Assembly: GCF_015667585.1 (NCBI RefSeq)
Contig: NZ_JADPEG010000003.1
Span: 124,001-188,000 of the forward strand
Direction of reading: 5' to 3'
DNA from: Clostridium sp. D33t1_170424_F3
GTDB lineage: Bacteria; Bacillota; Clostridia; Oscillospirales; Acutalibacteraceae
Length of the DNA: 64,000 nt
In this document: one piece after another, positions 8,801 to 63,194 of the stretch
Layout of the letters: each line of letters begins with the position of its first letter
Position numbering within the stretch: the stretch's first letter is position 1
The notes under the pieces: model-generated
What the model was told of the DNA's origin: nothing
The model's input: only the letters and a program-made list of their open reading frames with translations
The model's database searches: none
Program-made: the position numbers and the translations under genes

Positions 8801-9093
8801 TCGGCGCGGGCGTTGCACAGGCGGCGAGCGTGGTCTCCGATACTACCGTGAACTTTACCCTGAAGAGAGGCGCGGCGTACTGCTTCAAGATGACGGTTGT
8901 CAACGGCAACGGACAGGTCCCGAGCTTTACGGTCGGCAACGGCGAAGTGCTTAAGACCCAGTTTGTGGCGCAGATCGGCAACGCGTATTATTACAGAGTC
9001 TGGGCGATCGGCGCGCCGGGCCAGAGCGCGGGCGTGTACACCACCCTGCAGGGTTCTGCTGCCGTTAAGCACTGCACGGTAACGATTGGCTGA
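5842..9093 (+). CDS. Secreted papain-like (C1A) protease with FIVAR-like repeats and shared C-terminal module
   Basis: 1,083 residues from the ATG at 5842 (after GAGGTCGAG); the frame is open further upstream, but a signal peptide begins here (MKTGNKIVSLLIACSML... ending AFA). The papain-like domain covers about residues 80-370: Gln97, Cys103 in GWGTCWAF, His303 in CGHAVQIVGWDD and Asn337 in IRNSWG give a complete catalytic set. A lectin-like beta domain typical of bacterial C1 proteases follows (SFYTTDADAEYAIQVYTNTN). Then come a beta-repeat, about four FIVAR-like helical repeats (roughly 690-950), a Gly/Ser linker (about 955-975) and the shared C-terminal module (998-1083). Probably retained at the cell surface. 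It is a close paralogue of the next gene; the substrate is unknown. Confidence 0.9.
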   Translation: MKTGNKIVSLLIACSMLTASFSGTMAFAKTDRPTPEPVEGEVEMGTVMGYSRPGMDTSYMLQDVPKSKALARAAAEELPSAYNTVDDGRVTTEVRDQAGWGTCWAFAATGAIASSLYDELQEDTPVLSPVHMAYFTFHAIANPDDPADKTDGDSYLPYEYNAGDVEKPYVEYTGGGNTFASTSTFARGMGPVLEEEAPYPEPFYDVDKTPWLDLDPDLQFHQEYRLNNSNYLPKFNTKGELDTTAIKKALYENGGSLEVAYNSSGTRAFYYNEEYEPAMLGALGDQKVIMTHYTGSAFTDCGHAVQIVGWDDNIPKEYFQNSRGENPEHDGGWLIRNSWGDWSYMHGYFYMSYDEGSITEVSQYNVADADEFDHNYQYDGTGWSMSAGGEDKGAAVPMANIFKAVGDETLQAVSFYTTDADAEYAIQVYTNTNNYNPTSGVKAYKAPQTGTEAYPGYHTIYLDEPVNLNKGEYYSVVVTMKNPLARAFPVATEMNATLDNFRVQAAIKPHQSFISVDGGKNWIDMATVGKNYTAHSKRVDPSSQNQGDWTGNMKPGTSGVNIEVAGDFDGDVWDEIGNVCLKAFTTNGQEGITPVEAPSVKVKYSVGADVKATGDIDETYDFPGYYEGKIYTGDTATLSFVPYAEGREFAGVTVNGEADDSFEKNLYTYEVTGGEEDTALNFAFTIVNKLVLNTAIEFAKEAQGGEEYAAAMPTVQKLIDKALTAAEAVAESKTADQAAIDKAWKDLIDVIQLLQFRNGDMTALEFQLTMASQMNEADFTVDSWNAMIAVRDKAQAMFDAKDSLQEDIDAMTKELKEAITALVHATSKDSLQRLVDEASAYDLEEYLETGKAEFQKVLAAAVELLKDDSASQAEYNVMETRLAIAMAALRKIPDKNALDELNARFEAMDENAYTKQSFEAYRSSVEALNALVKSGASDEEIGAAYYMALDNEEKLALKTSKPGSGNSGSSGSSGGGSSYGGAGTAVVGAGVAQAASVVSDTTVNFTLKRGAAYCFKMTVVNGNGQVPSFTVGNGEVLKTQFVAQIGNAYYYRVWAIGAPGQSAGVYTTLQGSAAVKHCTVTIG
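8833..9090 (+). other. Shared C-terminal module, copy 1 (C1 protease)
   Basis: 86 residues: VSDTTVNFTLKRGAAYCFKM at the start, FTVGNGEVLKTQFVAQIG in the middle, RVWAIGAPGQSAGVYT, and KHCTVTIG at the very end of the protein. Two cysteines (AYC and KHC) lie near the two ends of the domain. Predicted all-beta from alternating residues. Confidence 0.9.
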
Positions 9094-9210
9094 GAATCCT
9101 ATAGCAGCAGCGAATAAAAAATGAAATGCCGTGGCGGCTGTCTGCGGATAAATCAGGTATGGACAGCTTGCCCCGCTGCAGCGGGCTAAGATAAATAAAG
9201 ATACGTAAAA

Positions 9211-9253
9211 AAGGAACTGCCAAGGATGGTTTGTCCAAGGCGGTTCCTTTCGC
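9211..9253 (+). terminator. Terminator after first C1 protease
   Basis: GGAACTGCCAAGG pairs with CCAAGGCGGTTCC across a short loop, followed by a T-rich stretch. It lies in the 471-base gap between the two protease genes, which otherwise holds only AT-rich DNA and the next promoter. Confidence 0.75.
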
Positions 9254-9486: not shown

Positions 9487-9564
9487 CATTGATATATATG
9501 GACGATAATTGATGTCCATGTGCTCGGTTTTAGGGCAAATTTACTACAAAGTGAGGTTGAGTTT

Positions 9565-12500: not shown

Positions 12501-12771
12501 GGCAAGCGTGGTTTCCGATACAACTGTGAACTTCTCGCTGAAGAGAGGAGCGGCATACTGCTTCAAGATGACCGTCGTCAACGGCAACGGGCAGGTTCCG
12601 AGCTTCACGGTCGGCAACGGTGCGGTCCTGAAGACCCAGTTTGTGGCGCAGATTGGCAGCGATTACTACTACAGAGTGTGGGCAGTCGGCGCGCCGGGCC
12701 AGAGCACGGGCGTCTACACCGCTTTGGCGGGCAATGCGGCTGTGAAGCACTGCGCGGTGACCATTGCCTGA
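9565..12771 (+). CDS. Secreted papain-like (C1A) protease, tandem paralogue
   Basis: 1,068 residues from ATG 9565 (preceded by AGTGAGGTTGAG). The signal peptide MKAGSKVLSVMIACS... ends AFA near residue 28. The catalytic set is complete: Gln96, Cys102 (GWGTCWSF), His284 (CNHAVQIVGWDD), Asn317 (IRNSWG). The lectin-like domain, beta-repeat, FIVAR-like repeats, GGSSGGSSGGGSS linker and C-terminal module (residues 983-1068) follow in the same order as in the upstream gene. Similarity is greatest in the middle and C-terminal parts, including long runs of identical codons. The prodomain-like N-terminus and the region around the catalytic His differ more, which suggests divergence in substrate use. 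It has its own promoter; a perfect 19-bp inverted repeat follows. Confidence 0.9.
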   Translation: MKAGSKVLSVMIACSLLTSSFAGTAAFAAANRNDPEEGAVMGKRVSAYSSRKMDISYMLNGAPVTKKALARAAGEELPAAYNAVESGTVTPEVRNQGGWGTCWSFSANGAMASDLYEDMGDDAPVFAPMHLAYFAYHGRSNPNDPADKTDGDTYRPFEYKESDADKKFQEYIMGGNTFIAMATLSRGEGPVLEEDLPYEVGKPEYEDLDPEIQFNQEYRLESANYLPTRDANGNLDGAAVKKALLEGGSLGISYNSRGYNYNVDYNGQKIKTQFGGMKFGDCNHAVQIVGWDDNVPKELFTNYYGTPEHDGAWIIRNSWGVDAYGGYFYMSYDEGSITEVMQYNMDKSGQEYDHLYQYDGTGWSMSAGAEEKDAPVSMANVFTATSDETLKAVSFYTTDANAEYSIQVYTQLPTGFYKPTQGVKAYKEPIAGTEAYPGYHTVALDEDQFVNLSKGEKYAVVVTLENPLGRAFPIATEMNGNFDNVRCVAAINARQSYLSLDGEGWQDVKTIGSNYTAIPKRNAGSSSAEDLQGKPGTSGVNIEVAGDFDGDMWGDLGNVCLKAFTTEGQEGFDPVEAPSVKVKYNVGADVKVTGDIDETYDFPGYYEGKVYAGDSAVLSFVPYAEGREFAGVTVNGEADGDYEKNLYTYQVTGGEEDAALDFSFTIVNKLVLNTAVQFAKEAQKGEEYAAAMPTVQKLLDEALAAGVAVADSKTADQPAIDKAWKDLIDVIQLLQFRNGDMKELAFQLEMAGQMDPAEFTEDSWNAMIAVRDKAQEMFDAKDSLQEDIDAMAKELKEAITNLVRKATKESLQKLVDEAKTYDLDKYLDIGKEKFQAELQAADALLADKTATQSDYNAMESRLAIAMAALRKIPDRAELEALLARFANTNASDYTEETFAAYSESVAALTALMDSGASKEAVTEAYYEAIEKENNLAANPNVPDSKPGKPSGGSSGGSSGGGSSYGGAGTAVVGAGVAQAASVVSDTTVNFSLKRGAAYCFKMTVVNGNGQVPSFTVGNGAVLKTQFVAQIGSDYYYRVWAVGAPGQSTGVYTALAGNAAVKHCAVTIA
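12511..12768 (+). other. Shared C-terminal module, copy 2 (C1 protease paralogue)
   Basis: 86 residues, nearly identical to copy 1: VSDTTVNFSLKRGAAYCFKM to KHCAVTIA. The two cysteines are conserved. Confidence 0.9.
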
Positions 12772-12881: not shown

Positions 12882-12887
12882 CTGAGA

Positions 12888-16185: not shown

Positions 16186-19100
16186 TTATGCAATTGTGAT
16201 AACACAATGCTGCTGGGCTTTTTCACCTGCCATGGCTGTGTATACGCCGGTGCTCTGGCCCGGTGCGCCGACGGCCCAGACTCTGTAATAGTAGTCGTTG
16301 CCGATCTTCGCCACAAACTGCGTCTTGAGCACATTGCCGTTGCCCACAGTGAAGCTCGGAGCCGCACTGCTGCCGTTGACGACCGTCATCTTGAAGCAGT
16401 AGGCGCTGCCTCTCTTCAGGGTGAAGTTCATCGTCGTGTCGGAACGCACGGACTTCCGGCCCATCACGTTCTGTGCCGCGCTGATGACCGGGTTCGCCGT
16501 TACAACCGCTGTGCCTTCGCCGGAAACATTGCCAGCCGGCTTCTTGCTGCCGCTGTTGGACGGCTTGTTGCTGGGCTTATTATCAGGCTTCACAGGTGTT
16601 TCCGGCTTGTCTGCCGGAACCAGTCCGTCATATGCCTGCTCCGCGGTGGTGTAGACCGCCGCGATTTCCGCCGGGGTCGCCGCGTCGTTGTGGTAGACGT
16701 CCAGCGCGTTGTTCAGCGCCGCGCGCAGGATCGCGTAGCTTGCTTCTGTATAGTCCGCCGGATTGAGCGCTTCATAGGTATCGATCAGGTCTTTCAGCGC
16801 TTCTCTGTCCGGGATCATCCGCATGTTCTGGATCGCCTTGTACAGCGCCTCCGCCAGTTCGTCCACCTGCTTCTGGGTCGCGTCAGCGTTTTCCAAAAGG
16901 GCTTCCGCCTGCGGGAGAATCTCATTGAACTTATCCTTCTCAGCGCCGTCCAGATACTGATCGATCCTTGTGGCAATCTCCTGTGCCTGCTCCACGAAGG
17001 ATTCCAGCGTTTCCGTGTTTGCCTTGAACGTCAGGCGCAGGATGGCGTCGTACAGGTCCTTCGTTGCTTTTTCAACGACTGCCTTCAGCGTCTCGCCCTC
17101 GTCGTTGTAGACTTCCTGCGCATAGGCCAGCGCTTCCGCGTAGCCTTCCTGGCTCTTCGGGGTGAAGTTATCCAGGTCGAGCTGCGCCGCATAGTCAAGC
17201 CAGTATTTCAGCTCGTCCTTCGTGCCTTCCTCAAAGGAGAGGTAATGCATCGCGTCGAGCAGTTCCTTCCAGGCTTCATTCACTTCGTCCTGGGTGGCCT
17301 TATCGCTTTCAAAGACCTTCTGTGCGTTGTCACGTGCCGCAAGGAACTTCGTGCGGACGGATTCAACCAGTTTGTCGAGCTGTTCGTCGGTGACTTCGTT
17401 CGCCTTCTCCAGCAGGGTTTCCAGCACGTCCTTGTTCACGGTGGTGAAGGTGAAGCGCAGGACAGTGTTTTCGTTCGGCATGGTGAAGGTGTAGGTGCAG
17501 CCGTCGGCCTCAAACGGGATGTCCTCGCCGTTGAGCTGCGCGCTTGCAAACGGGCCGTTCGCCGGGGTGAACGTCAGGGTGAGTTCCTCGCCCGCCATGA
17601 CCTTCGCGCCGTAGATGCCGTTGCCGTCGAGAATCACTTCCGCTTCTCCCGTGATCTCCAGCGCCGCGTTTCCGCCGTACTGGACGTTCAGAACGTGCGC
17701 CTTCAGCGGCTCGGTGCCCTTCGGCTCCAGAACGACTGTGACGTTGACCGGCTCCGAGGGCATGGTGAAGGTGTACACCTCGCCCGCCTTGACTGTCTGG
17801 ATGACAATGAGATTTCCACTCAAGGCCATGGATACCGAAAGGGACTTGAACTGCTTGCCCTCCTCGATGTCGGAGACGGCAACCGTGACCGTTTCGCCCG
17901 CCGTGGCCGCGGCTTTGTCGGTTGTGACGGTTGCTTCGCCGCCTTCCACATGCTTACTGATTGCGTAAATGGTACCTGTTTCTTCATTCTTGAAGAGTTT
18001 CAGATCGGCCCAGTCGGCGTGGTCGTTGCCGTTGCTCTCGACCATGTCCGCGTGGAGACGGATTTCATCCACACCGGAGATGTCGACGGAGAACTTCTTC
18101 TGTACGGCGCCAACCTTCATCACACCGCTTTCAAAGGCGGGTGTGTTGCTGCCGTCCAGGAAGATCTGGAAGTTGATCGACGCGTTATTGTTGTGGGACT
18201 GCGAGCGGTCGACGCCCACAAAGCCCTCAAAGAGGTCGAACGCGCCGTCCAGATGGTAGACAATGTCGGAGGTTGCATGGGTGCCGATGCCCTTGTCGTA
18301 CTGGACCTCCTCGCCGTTTTCACCCATCAGGGTCAGCTTGCCTTCGCCGGCGTGGGAGTCCTTGCTGGGCTGGTAGCCGTCCCAGCCGGTCGTGGCGGAG
18401 GTCCAGTCGAGATCGCTCATGTAGGTGAACTGCGCCACGGTGAAGTGGATGGTATAGACCCACGCGTCCGCTTCGTCCGCGTTTGCGGGGATGACCTTGA
18501 TGGTCGCGGTTCCGGGCAGGGAATACGCCTGGGTGATTTCCGCTTTGCTCTCCGTGTCGCTGACCACAACGTCCACCTGCGGGATGCGGGTGGTGTCGGT
18601 GATCATCACATCGTAGTTTTTCTGGTTCTGATCAAACCCTGCGATCGGGGTTCCGTCCACGGAAATGGATTCCACCAGCTTATCGGTGATGCCGCTCTTG
18701 CTGTTCTGCATCATGTCGCCGACGTTCTTTTCCGCGATCGGGCTGAACCGGAAGCTGTAGTTATAATCCTTGTTCGGGCGGATGGTAACATACTCTTCCG
18801 CTTTGGCGCCCCAGCTCTGCTGGCCGCCGAGGCCGGAGGTAAGCTGATTGATCTTGAGATAGATGTCGTCCTCCTGCACGAGCTGGTACGGATGCTTCTT
18901 GCTTGCCAGGTCGTTCTGCTCAAAGTAGGAGGCGTTTGTCTCCAGGACCTCGCCGTCCGCCGCGCTGACCATAAAGCCCTTGCCGGCCTCGTTGGTCAGG
19001 GCAATCCAGCGCACGTCGCTGCGATTGCCGTGTTCCTGCGGCTCCACGTAGTGGACGAACTGGTCCATGACGGTGGATTCATAGACGCCGATGTCGTACG

Positions 19101-23457: not shown

Positions 23458-23542
23458 AGGTTCCTCCTTTTCTTTCCTTCCCCATCGCAATGTATGGGAC
23501 ATTGCCGCAATTAATCCAAAAATTTGCGGCGTTTACAAATTT

Positions 23543-40997: not shown

Positions 40998-41001
40998 GAG
41001 A

Positions 41002-42220: not shown

Positions 42221-42477
42221 GCTTCCACCTGTTCGCCGGCGGTTTCCTCCTGATGCTCTTTCAGGAGCATATTAATGTGGTTCTGGGCGCTCTCCTCGAT
42301 GGTCGCGCCAGGATAGGGGGCATTGAGTTTTGTCTGAACGATCCAGTCGGCGCCGTTCTCATTGACAATGATGTAAACCTCATCATTTTTAGAGATCTTG
42401 AGAGACGTCATCGCCTTCTTTGCCGGACAGGAATTGATCGGGGACTGCTTGTCCCAAATTCTGTAAGTCAGTTTCAT
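42217..42477 (-). CDS. Small hypothetical tail-operon protein
   Basis: 86 residues, family not recognised. It has a beta-rich N-terminus (KLTYRIWDKQSP, EVYIIVNENGADWIVQTKLN) and an acidic helical C-terminus (ESAQNHINMLLKEHQEE). It sits where PBSX-type clusters have small XkdW/XkdX-like genes between fibres and lysis genes. The RBS AGGAGGTTAATA is upstream. The stop overlaps the amidase start. Confidence 0.6.
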   Translation of the reverse strand: MKLTYRIWDKQSPINSCPAKKAMTSLKISKNDEVYIIVNENGADWIVQTKLNAPYPGATIEESAQNHINMLLKEHQEETAGEQVEA

Positions 42478-42536
42478 AAATTATTAACCTCCTTATCATT
42501 TTTACTGAACCATTGATTACAGATTTTTTAGGTTCA

Positions 42537-43886
42537 CTAGTTTCTAATTTTTACCCATTGGGTCCCATCTCCAATATAAGTTGGGTATGTTTGGTACTTA
42601 CCATCTTTATAAAACCATACATGATCAAACCAACTCCGCAAGTTTAGCGATTTATCGAGAGATGAATAAAGAATAGCATCATAGTTAATTTTATCTTCTA
42701 TGGCAACTGTGTTTTCGGGTAATGGAGAATTTTTTAACTCAAATGCTGTAACGTTAAGATCGTTCTCATCTGCGGCAATAGAAGTGTTTTTTCGATTATA
42801 GAGTGGGGGAAAAATTAGTAATTGTTCCTTATCAATGCAAGCCATAGAATATCGAAAATATGAATGCGAGTCTTCATGTACAACCGGAGTGAATATTTCT
42901 GTATTGACATTAAAAAGAAAAGTGCTTTTTGTTTGGTTACTGATATCAGTCATAAATATGTTATCTTCCACATTGCAAATGACAGAAAAACTTGCGGGTG
43001 CTGTAATAGAAGTAGAGGTGTTTGTAAGAGTATTATATTTTATAAGAGTTTTGTTGGACGCAAAGTATATATTGTCATCGACAATAGAAATGAAATTCTG
43101 GGATGCATATACAGACGGCAAAGTAGCAACTTTTGTAAATGTTGTTTTAAATCCATCAAGAGATACTTTATATAGTTCAGTTGCGCTGACTACATAAGAT
43201 GATGAAGTCCAGGTAACTGCTTCTAATGCATAAAGAGTGTTTTTGACGCAGCCAATTATAAATTTGTCTTTTGGTATTTTTGTGGTTGTAGAGGTACTAG
43301 AGTCTAGTTCATTACCACTTTTATCTAACTTTTTTGCGAGACAAATTGTATCGCTGTCTTTAATTTCACCATCTTTTTTCTTGTAATATTCAAAATGTGC
43401 AAAAATATAAAAAGAATCGTTATACTCAAAAGCATTTGCACCAGCATAACAGTGCCAGATATAGTTGGAACTTGCAGAATAATGCTCATTGAAAAGCGTT
43501 TGTTTTTCAAATTTTTTAGTTTGCATATTAAATTTATACAAGTACACAATATGATAATATCTTTGAGAGTCCTGAGATACATCATCGAATTCTTGTTCGT
43601 TTGTAACAAAAAATATAGAATTATCTCCAACAAACGGTCTCCATAGAAAGGTAGGATAGTGCAAATATGTATCGCCATAAGTCTCTGAACCCATTAGACA
43701 AGACTTGTATCCAGTAGGGCCTAAAAACTGTCCTAAAAATGAAAAATGTTTACGCATATTACATTTAAATGATGCAGGCCGTTCAGGCATTTGAAGCCAA
43801 ATACCGTCTTTCACATGAGGCTCTTCCGGTTGACAGAAAACATTTACGCTAGCACTGTTTCCTCCGGTTCTTATAATATTTGCCAT
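42537..43886 (-). CDS. Kelch/beta-propeller-like tail tip protein, AT-rich
   Basis: 449 residues. An N-terminal attachment-like segment (SASVNVFCQPEEPHVKDGIW) precedes a series of beta blades of the form 'D..IYFASNKTLIKYNTLTNT', 'DNIFMTD...', 'YHIVYLYKFNMQTKKFEKQ', as in Kelch-type propellers of clostridial phage tails. It is probably a receptor-binding protein. GC content is clearly below that of the flanking tail genes (long A/T runs, AT-ending codons). The start overlaps the upstream stop by one base (TAATG), so the AT-rich body was probably acquired in place without disturbing coupling. Confidence 0.65.
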   Translation of the reverse strand: MANIIRTGGNSASVNVFCQPEEPHVKDGIWLQMPERPASFKCNMRKHFSFLGQFLGPTGYKSCLMGSETYGDTYLHYPTFLWRPFVGDNSIFFVTNEQEFDDVSQDSQRYYHIVYLYKFNMQTKKFEKQTLFNEHYSASSNYIWHCYAGANAFEYNDSFYIFAHFEYYKKKDGEIKDSDTICLAKKLDKSGNELDSSTSTTTKIPKDKFIIGCVKNTLYALEAVTWTSSSYVVSATELYKVSLDGFKTTFTKVATLPSVYASQNFISIVDDNIYFASNKTLIKYNTLTNTSTSITAPASFSVICNVEDNIFMTDISNQTKSTFLFNVNTEIFTPVVHEDSHSYFRYSMACIDKEQLLIFPPLYNRKNTSIAADENDLNVTAFELKNSPLPENTVAIEDKINYDAILYSSLDKSLNLRSWFDHVWFYKDGKYQTYPTYIGDGTQWVKIRN

Positions 43887-44437
43887 TATAAATCCCCCCG
43901 AATAATGATGCGAATGGGAATATCTGTTTCTGGTTTACTTCCCCACGCCTTCAAAACGATAGAGTTAGCCGCCTGCCCTCCGTCCTGAATATTAGCCGCC
44001 TGCAAAGCGTTCAGTTCCTCTTCCGTAATATCCAAGTCAGGCAAAATATCCTGATTGCTGGTCGTTGTCACACCGGCAACCGAAAGCGTGTACGTAAACG
44101 GCGGTGCGCTGCCAACCCACCCGGATGAAAGGAGCGTCTTTTCCAGCGTCGTAGACGGCGCGCTCCAATACGGTGCGCCTGTGGTGTTCTGGCGAAGAAA
44201 AGACCTGGTTTTCGTCGGAGCCGGAACCTGCGTCAGCGTCGTGGAAGAAGACGGATAGATTAAGCGCGACGCCGTCCAGGTTGTCTTTCCTGTACCGCCG
44301 CGCGATACCGCCACGGTGTTGGCGTTCAGTTTCATCTGCGTATCAATTTTGCCCAGGTTTCTATTGTAAACCGTAATGTCGTAAAATTCCGTTTCCAAGG
44401 GCATTTCCAATTTGTAATTACTGGTTTCTATTGCCAT
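43886..44437 (-). CDS. Proximal tail fibre protein
   Basis: 183 residues. The N-terminal SNYKLEMPLETEFYDITVYN...LGKIDTQMK is a typical phage fibre attachment segment in PBSX-like clusters. Residues ~45-95 carry SRGGTGKTTWTASRLIY and TTLTQVPAPT, also present in the collagen-like fibre. The C-terminal 60 residues (TEEELNALQAANIQDGGQAAN) are mixed. It directly follows the DUF2313 gene, the normal place for the first fibre. Confidence 0.75.
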   Translation of the reverse strand: MAIETSNYKLEMPLETEFYDITVYNRNLGKIDTQMKLNANTVAVSRGGTGKTTWTASRLIYPSSSTTLTQVPAPTKTRSFLRQNTTGAPYWSAPSTTLEKTLLSSGWVGSAPPFTYTLSVAGVTTTSNQDILPDLDITEEELNALQAANIQDGGQAANSIVLKAWGSKPETDIPIRIIIRGDL

Positions 44438-45014
44438 TGATCTCTCCTCCTCTGATCTGAATATGTGTGCATTTCTTGCTGTTTAATGCCAGATGCGTCC
44501 ATTTTGCCTGAGCGATTTCCCTGTGCGTCAGATACCGAATATCGTAGGTATACTGCAAATGTGCGGGTTTGATCTCGTCAATCGCGGCGGAAAGATCGTC
44601 CAGCAGCGGCGGAACGCCAATATCTCCAAATTGAATGGTAAAACGATTGGATTCCGGGTACTCCTGAATCATAATGTTGCCGTTGACAAAACTTTCCGCC
44701 AGATTTTGAATCATATCCCGCGTTGTCGTACCCTTCCCGCGCATCTTACTCAAAATTCTGGCACGCCGGTCTTTCTCGCTTTTGGACGGGTCTGTGTCCA
44801 GACCGTAGAGCTTTTCCCAAAGCTTTAATCCCCATGTTGTGGTGTTCACCAGAAGCTGCTGCACAAAGCTGTCGCCCGGCTGTTCTTCCAGCTCTTTCCC
44901 AACGCCCCAGGCCTCCTGCGCCGCGGCAATGGCCGGGTCGATCGTATCCTGCATTTTTTCGGTTTCCGTCTCGCCGTTTCTCTGGTAATAGTCCGGCAAA
45001 AGCTGTTTCATCAT
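44418..45014 (-). CDS. DUF2313 tail protein (XkdU-like, baseplate wedge)
   Basis: 198 residues. The family signature is seen in LLPDYYQRNGETE at the N-terminus, LWEKLYGLDTDPSKSEKDRRARILSKMRGKGTTT in the middle, and the terminal PAHLQYTYDIRYLTHREI, which resembles the T4 gp7/Mu gp48 class of baseplate proteins linking baseplate J to fibres. Its ATGA start overlaps the baseplate J stop. Confidence 0.9.
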   Translation of the reverse strand: MMKQLLPDYYQRNGETETEKMQDTIDPAIAAAQEAWGVGKELEEQPGDSFVQQLLVNTTTWGLKLWEKLYGLDTDPSKSEKDRRARILSKMRGKGTTTRDMIQNLAESFVNGNIMIQEYPESNRFTIQFGDIGVPPLLDDLSAAIDEIKPAHLQYTYDIRYLTHREIAQAKWTHLALNSKKCTHIQIRGGEINGNRNQ

Positions 45015-46276
45015 AGTGATTCACCTTCCGGGTCCACATAAGGCTCCACATCGACGTTGCCGAGCACCGGGACTTCGTTTTCTGCAAAAAGAATATTTTT
45101 CTTCTCCGCGTCTCCGGCGGCATATGTGCTGGGCGCGCTGGACACGCCGCTGATTTGCAGGTTTCCGATGTCCTTGACGCCGTTTACATTCAGCAGGAGA
45201 TTCACCACATGGTTATAGCGCAGGGACTTCTCCTTAAACGCAATCTTTTTAATGTACTCTTCCAGCGCGGTGCGGAAATCGTCGCGCACCTGTTCGATGG
45301 TCGCCAACCCCAAAAGCTCTGCTTTCACGCTGATGTCGATTCTCTTGGTCGCCGCGCTGAGCACATTTACGTTTACCCCGATCGGGCGGCAGGTTTCAAT
45401 GTGATCCCAGCAGTTTTTCAGAATCACATCGTCGGTGACCGGCTTTTTGTCCGGCCCAATGACATAGACGGAAATCTGCGGCAATGGGATGTCCCTTTCC
45501 ACATAGACCGTATTTCCGCTGCCGTCTGTCGTTTGAACATAGATCGGATTGACCTCTGCAAACTGATCCGCGCCGGTATTGCCCGTGTCGCGGTACAGGT
45601 GCATGTGTTCCTCCACGATTTTTGCATCGCCGATACCCGGGACCTCCGTCGCCCACTGCTGATAGTGGGATGCGTTGCCGCTTGTCCCCGGGTCGCGCAG
45701 CCGCTTGTAGAGGCGCTCTACCAGATCCTTGTCCGATTCCGAATCGTCCGTGCCGCCCTCCACCGCTTTTTCATTGGTGATGCTCTGCACCGTAATTCCA
45801 GCCAGCGCGGTTTGCAGCTGTGTGATGGCGCCGGGCTCCACGTTATAGGGCGTCCCGGTCTGTTCCGCCTCGACGTTTACCAGGGCTGTCCCGTTTTTAA
45901 CGGTGACCGCTTCCGTGGAATAGTACCGTCTGCGGTTGTCCGCATTTTCTTCGTTGGTTGTAAAGCAGGTGTTTACAGGCACCTGCTGGTTGTTCACGGA
46001 TGCTGCGCAGGTCATTTTGACATAGCCGGACGCTTTCTGCGGCTCCTTGCGCGTGATGCCGTACTCCGCACAGCGCCGGTCGATGTATGTACCGGAGGTT
46101 TCGTCCACAAAGGCGATGGGAATCAGCTCGTTCATCGTATCGTAAAGCTTCCAGATTTCATAGGCAACCGGGCTGACCAGATCGCTGGTGTAGCTGCCCT
46201 CGCGTTTATCCAGCTCGTTCGACATGCCCGCCAGGATTTGTTCCCGGATATTTTCCGGTGTTTTTTCTTCAAACAT
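45011..46276 (-). CDS. Baseplate J-like protein (XkdT-like)
   Basis: 421 residues from ATG 46276, set by GGAGGTGATATCC; the frame is open further upstream without a second site. Baseplate_J features: SYTSDLVSPVAYEIWKLY and DETSGTYIDRRCAEYGITR at the N-terminus, GTPYNVEPGAITQL in the central domain, and GGTDDSESDKDLVERLYKR. In contractile tails J-type proteins form the baseplate wedges that connect hub to sheath. Confidence 0.93.
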   Translation of the reverse strand: MFEEKTPENIREQILAGMSNELDKREGSYTSDLVSPVAYEIWKLYDTMNELIPIAFVDETSGTYIDRRCAEYGITRKEPQKASGYVKMTCAASVNNQQVPVNTCFTTNEENADNRRRYYSTEAVTVKNGTALVNVEAEQTGTPYNVEPGAITQLQTALAGITVQSITNEKAVEGGTDDSESDKDLVERLYKRLRDPGTSGNASHYQQWATEVPGIGDAKIVEEHMHLYRDTGNTGADQFAEVNPIYVQTTDGSGNTVYVERDIPLPQISVYVIGPDKKPVTDDVILKNCWDHIETCRPIGVNVNVLSAATKRIDISVKAELLGLATIEQVRDDFRTALEEYIKKIAFKEKSLRYNHVVNLLLNVNGVKDIGNLQISGVSSAPSTYAAGDAEKKNILFAENEVPVLGNVDVEPYVDPEGESL

Positions 46277-46742
46277 GGATATCACCTCCCAATTGTATAT
46301 CGCCGTAGACGGTTTTGATCCGGCATGTGATGTGCAGGATGTCCGCCGCATAGCGGCCATTTGCCGTTTTGTCTGTGTCGTCTTCCTTTTTGCCAAAGGA
46401 AACGTCCAGTTCCTCCACGCCGGTGATGTAGGGATTCACCAGCAGGCTTTCCCGGATATACCGCATCGCCTCGGCGCGCTTCAGGGCTTCCGTGTAGGGC
46501 TGCCCGATCAGGGCCGCCAGCTCGCAGCCGTAGTTCCAGGTGTAAATTTTATATCGGAACCGCTCCGTGTGCAGGGTTTTCCACGCCCAGGTCAGAACGG
46601 CTTCCTCGCGCTCCACAATGACCGGATTCTTATCCTGAAACACCGGCTTGTTCGCGGTAAAATCCCATTTGACCTCCCGGTAGGTCGGAAGCTCGTTCTG
46701 CACCTCCACGGTTGGCGGCTGGATAATTGGAAACAGGGTCAT
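46269..46742 (-). CDS. DUF2634 baseplate protein (XkdS-like, gp25-type)
   Basis: 157 residues. TYREVKWDFTANKP...EREEAVLTWAWKTLHTERFRY...NYGCELAALIG is the DUF2634/XkdS signature, a homologue of the gp25-type sheath initiator at the baseplate. It overlaps the DUF2577 gene (ATGA) and the baseplate J gene by a few bases. Confidence 0.9.
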   Translation of the reverse strand: MTLFPIIQPPTVEVQNELPTYREVKWDFTANKPVFQDKNPVIVEREEAVLTWAWKTLHTERFRYKIYTWNYGCELAALIGQPYTEALKRAEAMRYIRESLLVNPYITGVEELDVSFGKKEDDTDKTANGRYAADILHITCRIKTVYGDIQLGGDIHV

Positions 46743-47005
46743 GCGCCCACCACCTTACATAGTACATAGAATAGCTGCTGATCCCCGCGCGGCGACATCA
46801 GGACGATGTCTCCCGGACGGAGAGCGTCTTCGCCGCGCAGCAGCGCGTTGATTTTCACGTCGTTTTGGTCCAATTCAATATTCCCCATTTTGATTTTCAG
46901 CGGAGCCGCGCTGGTGACGGTTCCCGTCGCGTTGGCGGGAATGCGCTGTTCCGCGATTTCCTGCCGGATCGCCTGCCAGAATGAAGAATACGGGTTATCT
47001 TCCAT
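46739..47005 (-). CDS. DUF2577 tail protein (XkdR-like)
   Basis: 88 residues, with an OB-like beta core (TGTVTSAAPLKIKMGNIELDQNDVKINALL, LRPGDIVLMSPRGDQQLFYVL). It is normally found between hub and baseplate genes in PBSX-type clusters and thought to belong to the central spike or hub. GGAGGG precedes the start. Confidence 0.88.
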   Translation of the reverse strand: MEDNPYSSFWQAIRQEIAEQRIPANATGTVTSAAPLKIKMGNIELDQNDVKINALLRGEDALRPGDIVLMSPRGDQQLFYVLCKVVGA

Positions 47006-47022
47006 AGGTTTCCCTCCGCTCC

Positions 47023-48015
47023 TTATTTTTTGTTTTCCGGCTTGCTGCCGGCTTCGACCTCGTCCATCATGCTCTGGAAGTTGACCACAAGCTGGTTTTT
47101 GTAAACGCCGTCCTTCCAGGTGTGGATGTCGGATTCAATGTAGAACAGGCCGGAAAGCCCGGTGTACGGTTCCTTTACGATGACCGCGTCGCCTGTCAGG
47201 CTGGTTACGTCCCCCAGACAGTCCAGCGTCACCTTTTGAGAAACGCCGTTTTCCGCCAAAAGTTTTTCTGCCTTTTCTTTCGCGTTTTCGTCCTTGTTTT
47301 GGGACAGGTAATTCTGCATCAGGCCGTACAATCTGATGTACGAATCGTTGGAGACCTGTCCCGTTTCCTTGTCGTTCTCATCGCGGATCGAAATTTTGTT
47401 AATCATGTTCTCAATGCTCTCGGAGCAGGAGGCCTGTAACAGGTTCGCGCCGCCCTCGATTACCAGTTTATTGCCGTCGGCGCTTTTTTCCAGAACGTTC
47501 AGCTTTCCGCCGGAGAACCGGATAAAATACTGCTTTTTGGTCTTGGCGGCCGCCAGTGTATAGGCGGTCTGGATCATCTCATACAGCGAGCATCCGGAGA
47601 AAATGCGGGACACCGTTACCCCCGGCTGGACGAGCTGTCCCATCGGCACCTCAAATTCGGCGCAGATTTTTTTCGCGATCGCGTCCGGCGTTTCATTTGT
47701 GAATTTAAAGGATGCTTTGTTGCGGTTGAGATAGTAGCCCCGGTCGTAGCAGCGGATGGAAATCGCGCTGTCGCCCGTTCCCTTTTGGCGGGAGAAGATG
47801 TAGCCCTGGAACAGCTCTTTGCCGTCGAGGGAGAAGGTCACCGCGTCGCCCAGTTCGCAGGTGACTTTCGGCAGATTGGCGTCGTCCGGCGTGGAAACCA
47901 GGTCGACCTCCAGAATACGCGTGCATTGCCGGTATTCCCCGGACCACTCCACGGAGGCGATCATCTGGCTGAGGTCGTACAAGTTATTTTCATGCGTTAC
48001 AAGAAGCTTTAACAT
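47023..48015 (-). CDS. Tail hub protein (XkdQ-like, gp27/gpD-type)
   Basis: 330 residues. The N-terminal MLKLLVTHENNLYDLSQMIASVEWSGEYRQCTRILEV and the GELGDAVTFSLDGKELFQGYIFSRQ-like block match the XkdQ family, the trimeric hub below the tail tube. The C-terminal TGLSGLFYIESDIHTWKDGVYKNQLVVNF region is also typical. It sits between the LysM protein and DUF2577, the normal order. Confidence 0.92.
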   Translation of the reverse strand: MLKLLVTHENNLYDLSQMIASVEWSGEYRQCTRILEVDLVSTPDDANLPKVTCELGDAVTFSLDGKELFQGYIFSRQKGTGDSAISIRCYDRGYYLNRNKASFKFTNETPDAIAKKICAEFEVPMGQLVQPGVTVSRIFSGCSLYEMIQTAYTLAAAKTKKQYFIRFSGGKLNVLEKSADGNKLVIEGGANLLQASCSESIENMINKISIRDENDKETGQVSNDSYIRLYGLMQNYLSQNKDENAKEKAEKLLAENGVSQKVTLDCLGDVTSLTGDAVIVKEPYTGLSGLFYIESDIHTWKDGVYKNQLVVNFQSMMDEVEAGSKPENKK

Positions 48016-48028
48016 GCGTCCCGCCCCC

Positions 48029-48670
48029 TTACAGTTTGGATTTGTCCGGCAGCTGCAGCGTCTTTCCCGCGTAGATTAGGTTGGGATTTTTGATCCCGTT
48101 GTAACTGGCGACCTTCGTGTAGAGCGCTTTGGAGCCGTCTCCGTAGAACTCCCTGCAGATCGCGCTCAGCGTATCGCCCGTTTTAACGGTGTAGGTTTTT
48201 GCCGCCGCGGGCGGTGTTTCCACCCGGCGTTCCTCTGTTTTGGTCGCCTGCTCCGTCTTCACGATCTTCGGCAGACGGTATTCCCGCAGGGAAAGCGTCG
48301 CGTAGACGTCGTTGGTTCCGTCCCGCTCGCCGTATTCGATGCTCTCTACCAGAACCTCCATGTTGACCGGCGTATCGGAGACGATGAACCGCAGGGGCGT
48401 ATGGTTGTCCGCACACTGCTCAAAAAACTGCACATAGGCGTATGGCGTCTGCGCGGAACCGCTGGTGAAGGGATAGCTTTTCCCGGGAAACAGGCATTGG
48501 ATGGACAGCGTCGCCAGCGCGCCGCCGCCTGCAAGATTTAAGTCCCCCAGCGTGTACATATCCACCGTTTCAACCTTTACGCCGTGGCGGATGGTGAAGT
48601 CCTCCGGAGTGACAGGCAGGGCTAGTTCCTGCTGGGTTTTGGAGTCTTTAAATATAAATTTACGAAGCAT
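48029..48670 (-). CDS. LysM tail protein (XkdP-like)
   Basis: 213 residues. The N-terminal tail-specific domain (LALPVTPEDFTIRHGVKVETVDMYTLGDLNL) is followed by a Lys/Glu/Pro linker and one LysM domain (about 158-208, TYTVKTGDTLSAICREFYGDG...NLIYAGKTLQLP). It binds peptidoglycan or caps the hub. GGGAG precedes the start at 48670. Confidence 0.93.
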   Translation of the reverse strand: MLRKFIFKDSKTQQELALPVTPEDFTIRHGVKVETVDMYTLGDLNLAGGGALATLSIQCLFPGKSYPFTSGSAQTPYAYVQFFEQCADNHTPLRFIVSDTPVNMEVLVESIEYGERDGTNDVYATLSLREYRLPKIVKTEQATKTEERRVETPPAAAKTYTVKTGDTLSAICREFYGDGSKALYTKVASYNGIKNPNLIYAGKTLQLPDKSKL

Positions 48671-48701
48671 TCTATTGTATCTCCCTGTACATTTGTATAT
48701 A

Positions 48702-49835
48702 TCACCTAGGCTCTATGGATGGAGCAAATGTGCCCTTATTACGTACCATGTTCTCAGCATGCTGTTGTGCGAATTGGCTCACAGTTACAGTTTCAGGAAC
48801 TTTTAATTGATATGTTATATGGTATGTTTTAGGCGTACCTTTTTCTATATAAGTTTTAACAGTTTGCTGTATGTCAGTTGCGGCTTTAGAAATACTATCG
48901 GCACTATACTTAACATCCTTAATGGTAGTATCGGGTAAAATCCCTGGAGACGGACCTATCGGAACCTCATCGGAAACAGGCGACGCTAGGTTTGTGACAT
49001 ATTTGTCATGCATATCGGTGTATGTAACGGAAAAGGCTTCATCCAATGCATCAGAAGGTTTATTCCATGCGCCTTCATAATTATATGCAAAATAATTGAG
49101 CAGTTCGACCAGCTTTACATCGCGATCTCGCTGTTCCTGCAGCAAGGAAGAATTTGCTTCATAATCCATCTCGACCCGGGCTTTTTGCGCTTCAACCATT
49201 GCCAGCATGGTGTCGTAGTCATTATTTTTCTTGGCTTCCAAATAGTTTGCATCTTTAGTCATCATGGCGGTCAAGGCTTTTTCTGTTGCGGCTTGCTTTT
49301 CTGCTTCTATGTTTGCTTCTTTTTTTCCTTGTTCGCTGTAAAGCATTTGTATTTCAGAACCAATTTCACTATTCTGGAAAGCTTCTTCTTTTTTTAGAGT
49401 TTTATCATTTGTTTCTTTGTATCCCTGGCCTTTAGCAAGTGCAAATTGATCGACGAAATCCATATTAGCTCTTTGTTCTTCTGACATATTGGCTAATTGC
49501 AATCCCGTCTTCGTCATTTCGCTTCTTTCGGATAAAATGTCATTATATGTTTTCCTGACAAAATCCTGAAAAGGCTGATCTTTTTCTCCCGGTTTTCCAA
49601 ACTGGTCAATAGAAGAATCGATAATACTTGAGAAAACGCCTAAGATTCCTCCTAGAATTCCTCCTGTCGCAAAACCCTCTAGACCGCTTTTGATTGCATC
49701 GTCCACATAACCACCCATGGACTCGCCAAACATTTCCTGAGTAAACATTCCAAGGATAGCATCTCGTTTATCTACAACGAATCCGTTTACATCGTCTGGA
49801 TTAAATTTTGCGAAAGAATCATCTAGGTATCCCAT
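48702..49835 (-). CDS. Short AT-rich protein in the tape-measure position
   Basis: 377 residues, where PBSX-type clusters carry a tape-measure protein usually of about 600-1,500 residues. It has a hydrophobic glycine-rich segment near 55-75 (FATGGILGGILGVFSSII), a long helical middle (about 90-245), and a C-terminus (KVPETVTVSQFAQQHAENMV) resembling the last helix of tape measures. GC is visibly lower than in flanking genes. AAGGAGGAG precedes the ATG, which lies next to the stop of the frameshifted chaperone. It may be an internally deleted tape measure or an unrelated replacement; no domain is recognised beyond this. Confidence 0.7.
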   Translation of the reverse strand: MGYLDDSFAKFNPDDVNGFVVDKRDAILGMFTQEMFGESMGGYVDDAIKSGLEGFATGGILGGILGVFSSIIDSSIDQFGKPGEKDQPFQDFVRKTYNDILSERSEMTKTGLQLANMSEEQRANMDFVDQFALAKGQGYKETNDKTLKKEEAFQNSEIGSEIQMLYSEQGKKEANIEAEKQAATEKALTAMMTKDANYLEAKKNNDYDTMLAMVEAQKARVEMDYEANSSLLQEQRDRDVKLVELLNYFAYNYEGAWNKPSDALDEAFSVTYTDMHDKYVTNLASPVSDEVPIGPSPGILPDTTIKDVKYSADSISKAATDIQQTVKTYIEKGTPKTYHITYQLKVPETVTVSQFAQQHAENMVRNKGTFAPSIEPR

Positions 49836-49836
49836 T

Positions 49837-50348
49837 TCATCTCCTCCTTTCCATATCTTTTTCGAAAAAGGCCCTTATTACAGCCTTTTCCCCCGCGGGC
49901 AGGCTGTAATAAGAACCGGGCATCATGTTTTTTTCCAGGAACAGATAGTACATCAGCTGTACTTCCGCGTCTTCATCTATTTTTTTTTAACCTCTTCCAC
50001 GGTGTTCTGGCGGAAGCCGCTCAGCTTTTCGATCTCGCGGCCCAGGTCTTCCACCTCGCCGGGCAGAAGCATCGCTTTCACCAGCTCCACCGGCGTGGCA
50101 GCGCGGTATTTTTCCTGCAGTTCTTTCGATTTCAAATCGGGGGAGGTCACGCCCGCCAATACGATATGGACGCTCATGTTTTCTCCCTTGCAGGTCTCGC
50201 GGATGTCCGCCACGCGGCTGTAGGAGAGCGCCTTCAGGGAGAAAATCACGTCTTCGCCGCAGAGCTCGCTCAGGCGCTTCATCTTAAACTCTTTTTCCGG
50301 CACGCCGGGCAATTCCGCTTTCAGCAGCAGATCCAATGCATTGCTCAT
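49837..50348 (-). CDS. Tail assembly chaperone, -1 frameshift long form
   Basis: Translating the short form (49977-50348) and slipping -1 on the A9 run just before its TAG opens a further ~47 codons ending in TGA at 49837. The extension reads IDEDAEVQLMYYLFLEKN, MMPGSYYSLPAGEKAVIRAF, then a short basic tail. It resembles the downstream overlapping products of other tail chaperones (G/GT type). It fills the otherwise empty gap exactly up to the next gene. Confidence 0.75.
49977..50348 (-). CDS. Tail assembly chaperone (XkdN-like), short form
   Basis: 123 residues. The XkdN-type features are an N-terminal DLLLKAELPGVPEKEFKMKRLSELCG, a core of helices, and a C-terminal VELVKAMLLPGEVEDLGREIEKLSGF. 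It is a homologue of the protein that coats the tape measure during tail assembly. It ends VKKK-stop at an A9 slippery run that allows -1 frameshifting into the long form. Confidence 0.88.
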   Translation of the reverse strand: MSNALDLLLKAELPGVPEKEFKMKRLSELCGEDVIFSLKALSYSRVADIRETCKGENMSVHIVLAGVTSPDLKSKELQEKYRAATPVELVKAMLLPGEVEDLGREIEKLSGFRQNTVEEVKKK

Positions 50349-50349
50349 C

Positions 50350-50784
50350 TTATTCCGCCTCCGGGATCATATCGAGATAGTCGTAGTCGGTGAAGGTAAA
50401 CGGCGCGTCCACCTTGCCGGTCGCGCCCGCTTCCCAGTCTGCCAGAGTCAGGTCGTCAAAGGAAACGCCGTTCGCCACTACGCGCTCCGCGCCGTAGGCG
50501 TCCGGGTCGTCCAGTTTGGAAATGATGGTAAAGCGGACGTCCTCGCCGTTCTTCATGCTGCTGCCGATTTTGCGCGCCATGCGGCTGGAGGTCTTGTACA
50601 GCTTTACAGTGCCGGAGCAGTCCATACCGGTGATCTTTTTGTCCGTGGCCATCATGCCGCAGCGCTTGATGTCTTCCTTTTTAAAAGAAACCTTGAGCTG
50701 CATGCCGTAGCATTCCGCCACATATTCGTTGTCGAGCCAAACCTCGCCCCAGGTGCCGGAAATCACTCTTTTTGCACTTTCCAT
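50350..50784 (-). CDS. Tail tube protein (XkdM-like)
   Basis: 144 residues. The sequence ISGTWGEVWLDNEYVAECYGMQLKV...ITGMDCSGTVKLYKTSSRM is the XkdM/gp19-like tube signature. The tube is the inner rigid cylinder of a contractile tail. AAGGAGGATTTAAACC gives the start, and the sheath gene ends 14 bases upstream. Confidence 0.92.
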   Translation of the reverse strand: MESAKRVISGTWGEVWLDNEYVAECYGMQLKVSFKKEDIKRCGMMATDKKITGMDCSGTVKLYKTSSRMARKIGSSMKNGEDVRFTIISKLDDPDAYGAERVVANGVSFDDLTLADWEAGATGKVDAPFTFTDYDYLDMIPEAE

Positions 50785-50798
50785 GGTTTAAATCCTCC

Positions 50799-51926
50799 TT
50801 AAATTGCAATCTGCAGATCGATATCCTCGATCGCATCCAGAATTTTAATACTTGCCGCTAGGAATACCTTGTCCTTCGTGTTGGCGTTGCGGAGCTCCTG
50901 CTCGCTCAGCTCGGAGACGTCCACGCCGGTGCTCTGGAGGTATGCGGACTGCGCGTCCCTGTCGATGTCCACGACGCTCTTGCCCGGGTCCAGAATGCCC
51001 TCCTGCTCCAGCTGGGTGAAATAGCCCTTAATTGCGGTAATCAGCAGGCACTTGTTGTCGTAGCTGTTGGCGTACTTGCCAATGTAGTTGTCCTGTGCGG
51101 TCATGCGAATGTCGCTCTGAATCATGTCCACCGCTTCCACAATCTTGATCTTCTTGAATTCCTCGCCGTGGCCCTCACTGGTGGTGGTCATGGAGTTGAC
51201 GCCCCTGCCGACCTTGACCTTGCGGCCGTCGTGCATCAGGATGAACTTGCCTGCATCGATGGCCGTGTCCATCTCCGTCTGGGACAAACGTGTGATGTCC
51301 TCTACCTCGGAGAGCGGCGCGTAGGTGCAGGAGATGTTCATCGGGGTGCCCGCCAGAAGGCCCGCGATGCGGCTGCAATACTGGCCCGCGCTGAAGGTTT
51401 CCCGATGGTCCTTATCCTCTGCGGTCGGCATGTGGACCACGATGCCCGACGTTGTGAAATTGATCACGCCGTCGCTGTCCGCGGCTGTGTTCGGCAGTAC
51501 GGCTTTTACCGTGCGGTTGTTGCGTCTCTGCGTTTCAATCCAGCTGGACAGGACGGAGGCCTGCAGCGACTCGCCGCTCATGCCAAGCGTCTGCGGACCG
51601 GCCAGATAGTCAAAGGTCTGCGTGCTCAAAACTTTCAGAGCCTCGTCAAAGGTGTTATCGCCGGCCGCCATCTCATAAACCAGAACTTTTCCCGGCTTGT
51701 TTACATAGCCAAGGAACGCGTTCTCAATGTATTTCTGATTGGTCATGACTTCGTTTTCTCTTTTGTTCAGCAAAGAGGCGGGCAGATTGGAAGCGCTGGT
51801 CAGCGTATGCAGCTTTCTTTCGGAACCGGTGCCTCTTACAATCAGCGCCACAATGCCTTTCTGCGAACGCTGTACAGCGGATACCCCCTGTGTTTTAAAT
51901 GCGATATGAATATTGGGAAGTCCCAT
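50799..51926 (-). CDS. Contractile tail sheath protein (XkdK-like)
   Basis: 375 residues from ATG 51926 (AGGAGGAATTTACAA upstream). Begins MGLPNIHIAFKTQGVSAVQRSQKG, the XkdK start, and ends with the sheath C-terminal domain (KVFLAASIKILDAIEDIDLQI). Contraction of the sheath drives the tube into a target envelope. Its presence defines the cluster as myovirus-like or R-type tailocin-like rather than siphovirus-like. Confidence 0.95.
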   Translation of the reverse strand: MGLPNIHIAFKTQGVSAVQRSQKGIVALIVRGTGSERKLHTLTSASNLPASLLNKRENEVMTNQKYIENAFLGYVNKPGKVLVYEMAAGDNTFDEALKVLSTQTFDYLAGPQTLGMSGESLQASVLSSWIETQRRNNRTVKAVLPNTAADSDGVINFTTSGIVVHMPTAEDKDHRETFSAGQYCSRIAGLLAGTPMNISCTYAPLSEVEDITRLSQTEMDTAIDAGKFILMHDGRKVKVGRGVNSMTTTSEGHGEEFKKIKIVEAVDMIQSDIRMTAQDNYIGKYANSYDNKCLLITAIKGYFTQLEQEGILDPGKSVVDIDRDAQSAYLQSTGVDVSELSEQELRNANTKDKVFLAASIKILDAIEDIDLQIAI

Positions 51927-52005
51927 TTGTAAATTCCTCCTGTTATACATTTTTGTTTACAGACACGGCATCCAGCCGTGCCTTTTATGATCTGGTTGCC
52001 GCGTC

Positions 52006-62500: not shown

Positions 62501-63194
62501 CGCTCTGGAAGAAGCGGAAGCGCTCGTCGATACCGACGCAACCCAGTCCGCGGTCGATGCGGCAGCGGAAAAACTGGAGAAAGCCATGCACGTCCTCCGC
62601 CTCATCCCGAATACCTCCGCTCTGGAAGACGTGATCGAAGCGATGAAGAACGCGGATACCTCCAACAGCAGCGCGGCGGCAATCGCAAAACTGCAGTCCA
62701 CGCTGAAAGAAGCGGAAGCAGCCCTGGCAAGCGGAACGCTGGATCAGGCGGGCGTCGATAAGCTGGCCGCGGCGGGCAGAACCGCGCTGAACGGCCTGGG
62801 CGATCTGAACAAACCCTCCACCTCCGGCGGCAGCAAGTCCTCCGGCAGCACAGCCTCCAGCGGAAACGCATACGGCAGCGCGGGCACCGCAATCGTCGGC
62901 GCGGCGACAACCGCACAGGCGGCTGCAAGCGTGGTTTCCGATACGACCGTCAACTTCACCCTGAAGAGAGGCAGCGCATACTGCTTCAAGATGACCGTCA
63001 TGGGTGGCAGTAACCTCACGCCGAGCTTCACCGTCGGCAACGGCGATGTGCTCAAGACCCAGTTTGCAGCAAAGATCGGCAACGATTATTACTACAGAGT
63101 CTGGGCGACCGGCGCACCGGGAACCAGCACAGGCGTGTACACCACCCTGGCAGGCCAGAACGCCGTCAAGCACTGCACTGTGACAATTGGCTGA
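56580..63194 (+). CDS. Giant secreted tandem GH3 protein with FIVAR-like repeats and shared C-terminal module
   Basis: 2,204 residues; signal peptide MKRLSKSIVSLALASSML...AFA. Two GH3 units lie in one chain. The first appears permuted: a C-domain-like part (about 40-280, VGAQGMVLLENKNAALPI, GKVTPSGKLTDTW) and an FN3-like domain (about 310-440) precede the barrel (about 520-830) with KHYAANNQENNRN and nucleophile Asp789 in IMTDWGG. The second barrel (about 1015-1400) carries NNSSDPRHG, VKHWPSGGPEEGGRD and nucleophile Asp1328 in VCTDWM, followed by its own C-domain (about 1430-1690). A beta-repeat, FIVAR-like repeats (about 1800-2080), a linker and the C-terminal module (2119-2204) complete it. 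GH3 enzymes are mostly exo-beta-glycosidases; the specificity of each site is unknown. Confidence 0.9.
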   Translation: MKRLSKSIVSLALASSMLASMCVTTAFAASPDDTVSEREIQNAALARKVGAQGMVLLENKNAALPIKESGKIALFGGGAYGTVKGGTGSGDVNQRYVVNVWDGLKNAGYEITSNSWLDAFKEYYDENHTSGGMWGSKPVPDTEVTDEDITSASSADTAIYVIARNSGEGSDRKAEKGDYYLTDIEYSNLEKLGKNFEKVIVVLNVGGIVDTKFFNEIEGLDSMLLMSQAGMEGGNAVTDVLTGKVTPSGKLTDTWAVDYMDYPSSETFSSNDNNVKYEEYEDGIYVGYRYFDTFNVTPAYEFGYGSSYTTFDTKINFVEADATTVTVNATIKNTGDTYSGKEVFEVYFSAPDGKLEKPYQELAGFAKTDELAPGASQDLTVSFPLTEMSSYDEESASYIMEAGDYVIRGGNSSRNTHVGGVIRIGETKTTEQLSSQLGLPEGRELNEISKADATPYSYEGEAAEIAAAKVFNIAAADIAFENNTSPYDDEKVVTYRVEGEEKEDSNFNGSHPVEEVTVDALPDANLKDVYDGKISMEEFVAQMSVEQLADLAEGIGWGTGGQPIIGSQSDSVPGAAGETTKTLLDSMGIPNIVLADGPAGVRISQSFDGQDAVTGETQKYYQFCTAWPIGTLLAQTWDKDLIEAIGDGFGTEMQEMGVTLLLAPGMNIHRNPLCGRNFEYYSEDPLVAGMSAAALTLGVQSNQGVGVTLKHYAANNQENNRNAVDTFVSERALREIYLKGFEMAVKNAQPMSIMTSYNLINSVPAADSYDLCTDFARGEWGFQGVIMTDWGGGQSDPGKSMHAGNDLIMPGGSAATIVAAATKVPAQYNEDGSIYVQKSEWWGQTIETEMWNDFVPVPYADGESCSFVANCPETKYKHTHVYVEPDENGLARYPGTFKIEYEGSYKEDYITKGDIQKSAMNVLNIVMQSNNMGSVHGVEIGNYSEQFDDLKDYITVEKSKISGVGSYTITKMDEANGGYYLVENDGGATLGMMNIDMLITDKGYAFKDLNGNGKLDVYEDWRLDTETRAQSLAEMMVNDGEEGIAAIAGLMLYSSHQAVNSENLTAAQETFLKEDNVRHVLVTTLKTPEIAAKWNNNAQAFVEGLGYGIPVNNSSDPRHGASGKSDVEYTAGQGGIISLWPDSIGLAATFDPSIVETFGDIASQEYRALGIATALSPQIDLATEPRWSRVSGTFGENSDLDTDMARAYVDGFQTTYDSENPWGAHSVNAMVKHWPSGGPEEGGRDGHYGYGKYAVYPGNNLKEQIKPFVEGAFNLNNGTEYATAVMPYYTISYNQAPDGTNVGNSYNKYIITDLLREKYGYDGVVCTDWMITADSTSDAVFQGKCWGVEDLTVDERHYMALQAGVDQFGGNNDKMPVLAAYDMWVENFGKEAADQRFEDSARRLLRNVFNPGLFENPYLDPSESTEIVGNEDFMEEGYNAQVKSVVMLKNADNTIVSAADDKKETVYLPYELNNKGEKVYCMSKDIVSKYYNVTDNPDEADFAIVGMSAPKGGSGYSTADLKAGGNGYLPISLQYGEYTADTARAQSIASDPGAEFINSTTGEVVYVDNVENRSYKGKTVTASNGSELVRLQNAKEAMGDKPVIVYMKLSNPMVWSEVEPLADAIVLGYGIQDQAAMEIISGTTEPSGLLPMQQPKNMETVEAQYEDVPQDMECYVDANGNTYDFAYGLNWNGQIYDDRTEKYADVSSAEPSEHMLTVRYVGKVDLSIDGEEQVIANLIGAYKDVVMAGEELELTFAPRVEGREIVLVNGKPVELNEDGTYTYTFTMPNAVANVSLNFTVVDRQILRSVVATAQELQKGSEYEAAVQVVKDQFDKALTAAEKVLADPKATQKDIDKAWADMINAIHYLSFAEGDKTILDELFASYELLNPDDYTADSWAAAEAAYEAAMEVYGDDNVLAADVEKAYDDLYKAMTDLLENRKADFESLINVINTAKEIKDNLDKYYDTGKEAFLTALEEAEALVDTDATQSAVDAAAEKLEKAMHVLRLIPNTSALEDVIEAMKNADTSNSSAAAIAKLQSTLKEAEAALASGTLDQAGVDKLAAAGRTALNGLGDLNKPSTSGGSKSSGSTASSGNAYGSAGTAIVGAATTAQAAASVVSDTTVNFTLKRGSAYCFKMTVMGGSNLTPSFTVGNGDVLKTQFAAKIGNDYYYRVWATGAPGTSTGVYTTLAGQNAVKHCTVTIG
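62934..63191 (+). other. Shared C-terminal module, copy 5 (GH3)
   Basis: 86 residues from VSDTTVNFTLKRGSAYCFKM to KHCTVTIG, following a Ser/Gly/Lys linker. Both end cysteines are present. Confidence 0.9.

Follow-up and report, generated by a model that had tools for sequence, protein, structure and literature searches.

That surface proteins of a host and lysins of its phages share one wall-binding module is already known from other systems; it is the domain family that is new in the present case. In Clostridioides difficile, CWB2 (PF04122) is such a module, and both CWB2 and the host-derived CBD of endolysin CD16/50L bind non-covalently, as the module described here presumably does, with host and phage copies that have likewise diverged (PMC9045149). 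However, CWB2 is of the alpha/beta Rossmann type, forms triple repeats and binds PS-II, whereas the module is a single domain with a predicted all-beta, immunoglobulin (Ig)-like fold. Three further systems can be compared. Pneumococcal surface proteins, like phage lysins, carry C-terminal choline-binding repeats and share one wall ligand (PMC4929436), and CW_7 of Cpl-7 likewise provides wall-binding repeats at the C-terminus (PMC3466307); both are short and tandem, in contrast to one folded domain of ~86 aa from another sequence family. SLH, a surface anchor common to secreted proteins and the endolysin LysBT1 (PMC12285257), is a helical triplet on a secondary wall polymer, whereas the module is a predicted beta domain. 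In the close relative Limousia, a comparable set of glycan- and protein-degrading enzymes is displayed by a mucinolysome, the dockerins of which bind cohesins on a sortase-anchored scaffold (PMC12997984); in Anaeromassilibacillus, dockerins are few and the module appears to take their place. As regards the fold, BIG2-like and SbsC Ig-like domains have the same general beta-sandwich (TM ~0.7), but Big_2 and the similar Ig-like Pfam families give no sequence match to the module above cut-off.

Module copies in the window and in the genome

The window, the whole stretch of 64,000 nucleotides that was analysed, contains six copies of the module (Table 1). Five had been described in an earlier note on this DNA and translate as given there, copy 3 from the minus strand; the plus-strand translation of that segment is unrelated to the module. 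The sixth, divergent copy had been overlooked, as had the total of about 80 matches in the genome. Copies 2–5 are 73–87% identical to copy 1, with 53 of 86 columns invariant in the alignment of the five, and chance cannot account for such similarity (E-values as low as 7e-57 within the same genome). As the note had observed, all five proteins end one residue after HCxxTI (HCxxTI[GA]). Their catalytic domains are also as named, but the two C1 proteases, both with C1 and Lectin_like domains (Pfam), are paralogues, so that the unrelated catalytic types are four and not five. All five proteins have FIVAR repeats ahead of the module, with scores below the Pfam cut-off in the two C1 proteases.

Table 1. 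Positions of the module copies and of the prophage features in the 64-kb window.
Feature	Position	Strand	Description
Copy 1	8833..9090	+	C-terminus of C1 protease, ORF 5842/5698-9093
Copy 2	12511..12768	+	C-terminus of paralogous C1 protease, ORF 9565/9520-12771
Copy 3	16189..16446	-	C-terminus of GH2 beta-galactosidase, ORF 16186-23502 (-)
Copy 4	29894..30151	+	C-terminus of MGH1/GH63-like glycosidase, ORF 23870/23768-30154
Copy 5	62934..63191	+	C-terminus of tandem GH3 protein, ORF 56580-63194
Sixth, divergent copy	41513..41749	-	C-terminal domain of prophage endolysin
Prophage endolysin	41486..42220	-	N-terminal Amidase_2 (E 1.7e-21) and module; no signal peptide
Phage holin (Phage_holin_4_1 / phrog_199)	41000..41499	-	Directly downstream of endolysin; genes overlap
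Prophage tail and lysis region	38889..51950	-	Tail sheath, baseplate wedge, tail fibre, holin, endolysin

The source genome is Anaeromassilibacillus-like and related to A. senegalensis mt9, An250 and UC5.1-1E11. A search with one module copy finds 80 matches in its own 3.2-Mb genome, and the four genomes of the genus that were searched contain 57, 69, 85 and 101. At least 59 giant signal-peptide proteins of 700–3,200 aa have a strong match in the source genome; essentially all 59 have a signal-peptide-like start, called by a hydrophobicity rule rather than SignalP, and the module is C-terminal throughout, with 0 trailing residues in 56 and one in 3. Immediately before it lie a Ser/Gly/Lys-rich linker and a GTAVV-like stretch. 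Across the loci from named genomes, 98 distinct proteins have a tail of 0 or 1 residue after the module. Many contigs of the source assembly (G000: C2, C4, C5, C8, C15, C16, C17, C19, C21, C24-C27 and C38) end at or near module copies, and the true copy number is therefore probably higher than counted.

The first 820 residues of the 59 giants match 83 Pfam families, the commonest being GH2 (10), GH3 (9), GH97 (4), GH127 (4) and GH31 (3), with GH27 (3) and C1 proteases (3) also frequent. Most giants are glycosidases, and they carry other sugar-binding domains (F5/8, Laminin_G_3, CBM35), as would suit a carbohydrate-binding module directed at dietary or host glycans. Such substrate targeting is nevertheless very unlikely, as one conserved domain serves many unrelated activities, proteases included, and is also found on endolysins, secreted lysozymes and a D,D-carboxypeptidase, the substrate of which is peptidoglycan.

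Against these giants, the source genome has 4 sortases, 2 LPXTG proteins, 1 SLH hit and 3 dockerin hits, so that among the candidate display devices of this genome the module is much the most widely used. Two of the sortases and the only two LPXTG proteins are clustered in a pilus-cluster-like arrangement (G000:C1:23391-28482). The absence of LPXTG, SLH and dockerin signatures remarked on earlier agrees with tests on the five proteins and the module. The module proteins have no sortase LPXTG anchor (PF00746), their ends being HCxxTI[GA]; the module copies give no Pfam match to SLH (PF00395) and contain no helical SLH triplet, and the module has neither a Dockerin match (PF00404) nor a duplicated Ca-binding loop. 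Likewise, CWB2 gives no Pfam match, and the module is predicted to be all-beta and occurs only once in each giant protein.

The repetition of a near-identical module across many unrelated enzymes is also a hallmark of cellulosome-type systems, in which a dockerin-cohesin-like docking domain binds a surface scaffold or receptor protein and builds a multi-enzyme complex. The homogeneous clade formed by the giant-protein copies and the display of mucin enzymes through dockerins in the related genus Limousia (PMC12997984) would fit such docking. It is unlikely here, given the lack of an EF-hand or dockerin signature in the module, the mere 3 dockerin hits in the genome and the presence of the module on endolysins of two catalytic families, which need a wall target from the inside.

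Predicted fold, cysteines and known families

The structure prediction that the earlier note had proposed was run with AlphaFold2, and the model of the module (mean pLDDT 94.7, pTM 0.83) is all-beta, an Ig-like beta-sandwich. Its Foldseek neighbours are the Ig-like domains of the S-layer protein SbsC (TM ~0.72), followed by titin-type Ig domains, and comparison with a viral structure library gives a BIG2-like result. The model of the endolysin copy (pLDDT 86.2) has the same strand order and Ig-like neighbours. On these predicted models, the module belongs to the bacterial Ig-like beta-sandwiches.

Two cysteines, described in the note as invariant, are both present in 57 of the 59 giant copies, and neither occurs in any of the 24 endolysin-type copies; other secreted module proteins often have the second cysteine only. 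The pair therefore characterises the secreted-enzyme subfamily and not the module in general, and an invariant disulfide is excluded as a defining trait because the endolysin-type copies lack the pair. Judged from the sequences, the exported form seems to have acquired the pair late, as a stabilisation compatible with a putative disulfide.

The module lies outside all Pfam and NCBIfam models, including when 36 diverse copies were each scanned, and the copies tested have no match in PHROG or among PDB sequences. Signals of the PEP-CTERM, choice-of-anchor or T9SS type (NCBIfam) give nothing above cut-off and isolated weak hits only. Identity with AlphaC_N (PF08829) was considered and rejected: the best score is ~16.5 bits against a gathering cut-off of 25 bits, at E 0.004–0.02 and in few members. 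An existing named anchoring family, which would have spoken against the note's reading, was accordingly found in none of these four resources, and the literature searched, with subscription papers outside its coverage, contains no published description, as the note had supposed. That the module is an undescribed family is supported.

Endolysin carriers and a probable role at the cell wall

The sixth copy belongs to the endolysin of a contractile-tailed prophage that sits among the giant-enzyme genes of the window. This protein, assigned by PHROG as amidase/endolysin, carries a copy 45% identical to copy 5. Here the module lies C-terminal to a peptidoglycan hydrolase, in a soluble lysin and beside a holin, which is the position of an endolysin wall-binding domain. 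Further source-genome proteins ending in the module are a GH25 lysozyme (L090), a VanY D,D-carboxypeptidase (L088) and a secreted GH25 protein with tandem copies (L087). In addition, a soluble GH25 protein with the module and without a signal peptide (L225:6262-7203, minus strand, G000:C11) has no prophage around it; its neighbours, read by eye, are Asn-tRNA ligase-like and SmpB-like genes, and orthologues occur in all four genus genomes (L247-L250). It is possibly a domesticated lysin, and as L225 and L249 lie outside a recognisable prophage, the lysin-like carriers are not all phage genes.

In a reverse test, the four genomes of the genus were searched with Pfam GH25 and Amidase_2, ignoring the module, and the proteins found were then inspected. 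All 8 GH25 proteins carry the module (4 secreted with tandem copies, 4 soluble). The 20 Amidase_2 genes comprise 4 membrane-anchored and 16 soluble phage-type ones; the module is present in 15 of the latter and absent from the four TM-anchored amidases of these genomes. The one exception (L265) has a C-terminal SH3_3-like domain instead, at 24.2 bits against a cut-off of 27. Furthermore, a profile built from 34 giant-protein copies alone, with no endolysin training data, recovers all 24 endolysin-type copies tested, 23 at E 2e-20 to 1e-5 (2.7e-19 for the window endolysin) and L259 at 2.5e-3, and matches none of five controls; the homology is hence independent of endolysin training data.

Ig-like folds are often mere spacers, and a structural cap without a ligand would agree with the likeness to BIG2 and S-layer Ig domains and with the Big_2 domains that neighbour the module in L085, L087 and L089. 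A passive cap is barely probable, however, as the sole extra domain of 15 of 16 amidase and 4 of 4 soluble GH25 lysins, and in the single exception it would hardly be expected to give way to an SH3-like domain. Endolysins without a signal peptide reach the wall via holins, so that the property shared by the carriers is wall contact or affinity and not export. Of the "delivery or anchoring device" proposed in the note, anchoring is strongly supported, mainly by the wall-binding position in the phage endolysins and GH25 lysozymes, whereas pure delivery or export is disfavoured. The note had named hits in cytosolic proteins as contrary evidence, and the endolysins literally are such hits; yet they act on the wall, and they therefore favour anchoring over a delivery signal.

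The module is thus very probably a small Ig-like candidate cell-wall-binding domain used for enzyme display and by phage lysins, and would most likely serve as the handle that holds enzymes of both kinds on the cell wall. Copy homology, domain order, position, the presence/absence pattern and the predicted fold come from sequence; wall binding, the ligand and the surface retention of the giants we infer. The giant enzymes would leave the cell by the Sec route, and FIVAR-type helical repeats together with the flexible Ser/Gly/Lys linker would keep their catalytic domains off the surface. The extreme C-terminal module would bind a wall component non-covalently; the likeliest candidate is a wall glycan or a secondary wall polymer peculiar to the bacterial family. 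About 60–100 glycosidases and proteases could thereby be retained on the cell. Phages of the same hosts would hold their Amidase_2 or GH25 endolysins on the wall by divergent relatives of the module.

Distribution and evolution

In the family sample, the module occurs in 13 of 250 genomes and 6 of 135 genera. The order (394), class (391) and phylum (399) samples contain no credible copy outside the GTDB family of the window, under a first-look filter and strict cut-offs that distant copies may escape; a class-level hit (G1253, E 6e-4) was dismissed for internal stops. In other genera of the family, GH25 or Amidase_2 proteins with the module lie beside a holin or tail gene (L211, L217, L218, L219), and giant enzymes with the module also occur (L221-L224, L226, L230). 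The lysin-module pairing is found on IMG/VR phage contigs at 8 loci (L091-L093, L272-L276), some of which are prophages of the same strains, so that the lysin counts are not fully independent. A tblastn search of two module copies against 50,697 phage records gave no match, as expected if the phages of these hosts have not been isolated.

The note had suggested checking whether the module is always C-terminal in signal-peptide proteins. This is so for the at least 59 giants and fails for the tandem, post-signal-peptide and endolysin copies. Two proteins of ~320 aa from other genera (L103:1402-2358, L216:2946-3905) have the module directly behind the signal peptide and, next to it, a domain that looks similar but has no Pfam match; one protein consists of nothing but two modules (L214). 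A module at the extreme C-terminus without trailing residues might be explained as an export or sorting signal at that end, of the kind seen in T9SS or PEP-CTERM tails, on which a dedicated enzyme acts. Such a signal is extremely improbable: a TM helix and basic tail are lacking, the predicted compact fold extends to the last residue, soluble phage endolysins without a signal peptide carry the module, and N-terminal or tandem copies exist. In its purely C-terminal form it is ruled out by the copies in endolysins, in tandem and at the N-terminus.

When 139 copies are placed in one tree, the giant-protein copies group together, with an extra host copy (L085) inside and low support, while the endolysin copies fall into separate, deeper groups. 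The anchor of the giant enzymes accordingly looks like one variant spread over many genes in the genus. As the giants form one recent clade apart from the endolysin copies, the function could have shifted between the two.

Returning to the wall-anchor reading, the module is probably the main surface-display system of Anaeromassilibacillus. A joint reading is likely, in which the module represents an undescribed family of single-domain Ig-like wall anchors, restricted for the most part to a single family of gut Clostridia, that displays ~60–100 enzymes per genome as the main system of the genus, while phage lysins of those hosts use relatives as their usual means of wall targeting and the secreted subfamily gained a cysteine pair absent from lysins made in the cytosol. 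If true, it would give a name and function to the domain ending dozens of giant proteins per Anaeromassilibacillus genome and explain how glycan- and protein-degrading enzymes remain cell-bound although cohesins and sortases are little used. It would also be a clear case of one anchor family common to phage and host, a source of wall-binding domains for lysins against bacteria of the same family, and a set of ready-made surface-display tags for a little-studied gut group. L087 (298-2604, minus strand) contains tandem Ig-like repeats grading from BIG2-like to the module, and this gradation suggests how the module may have arisen.
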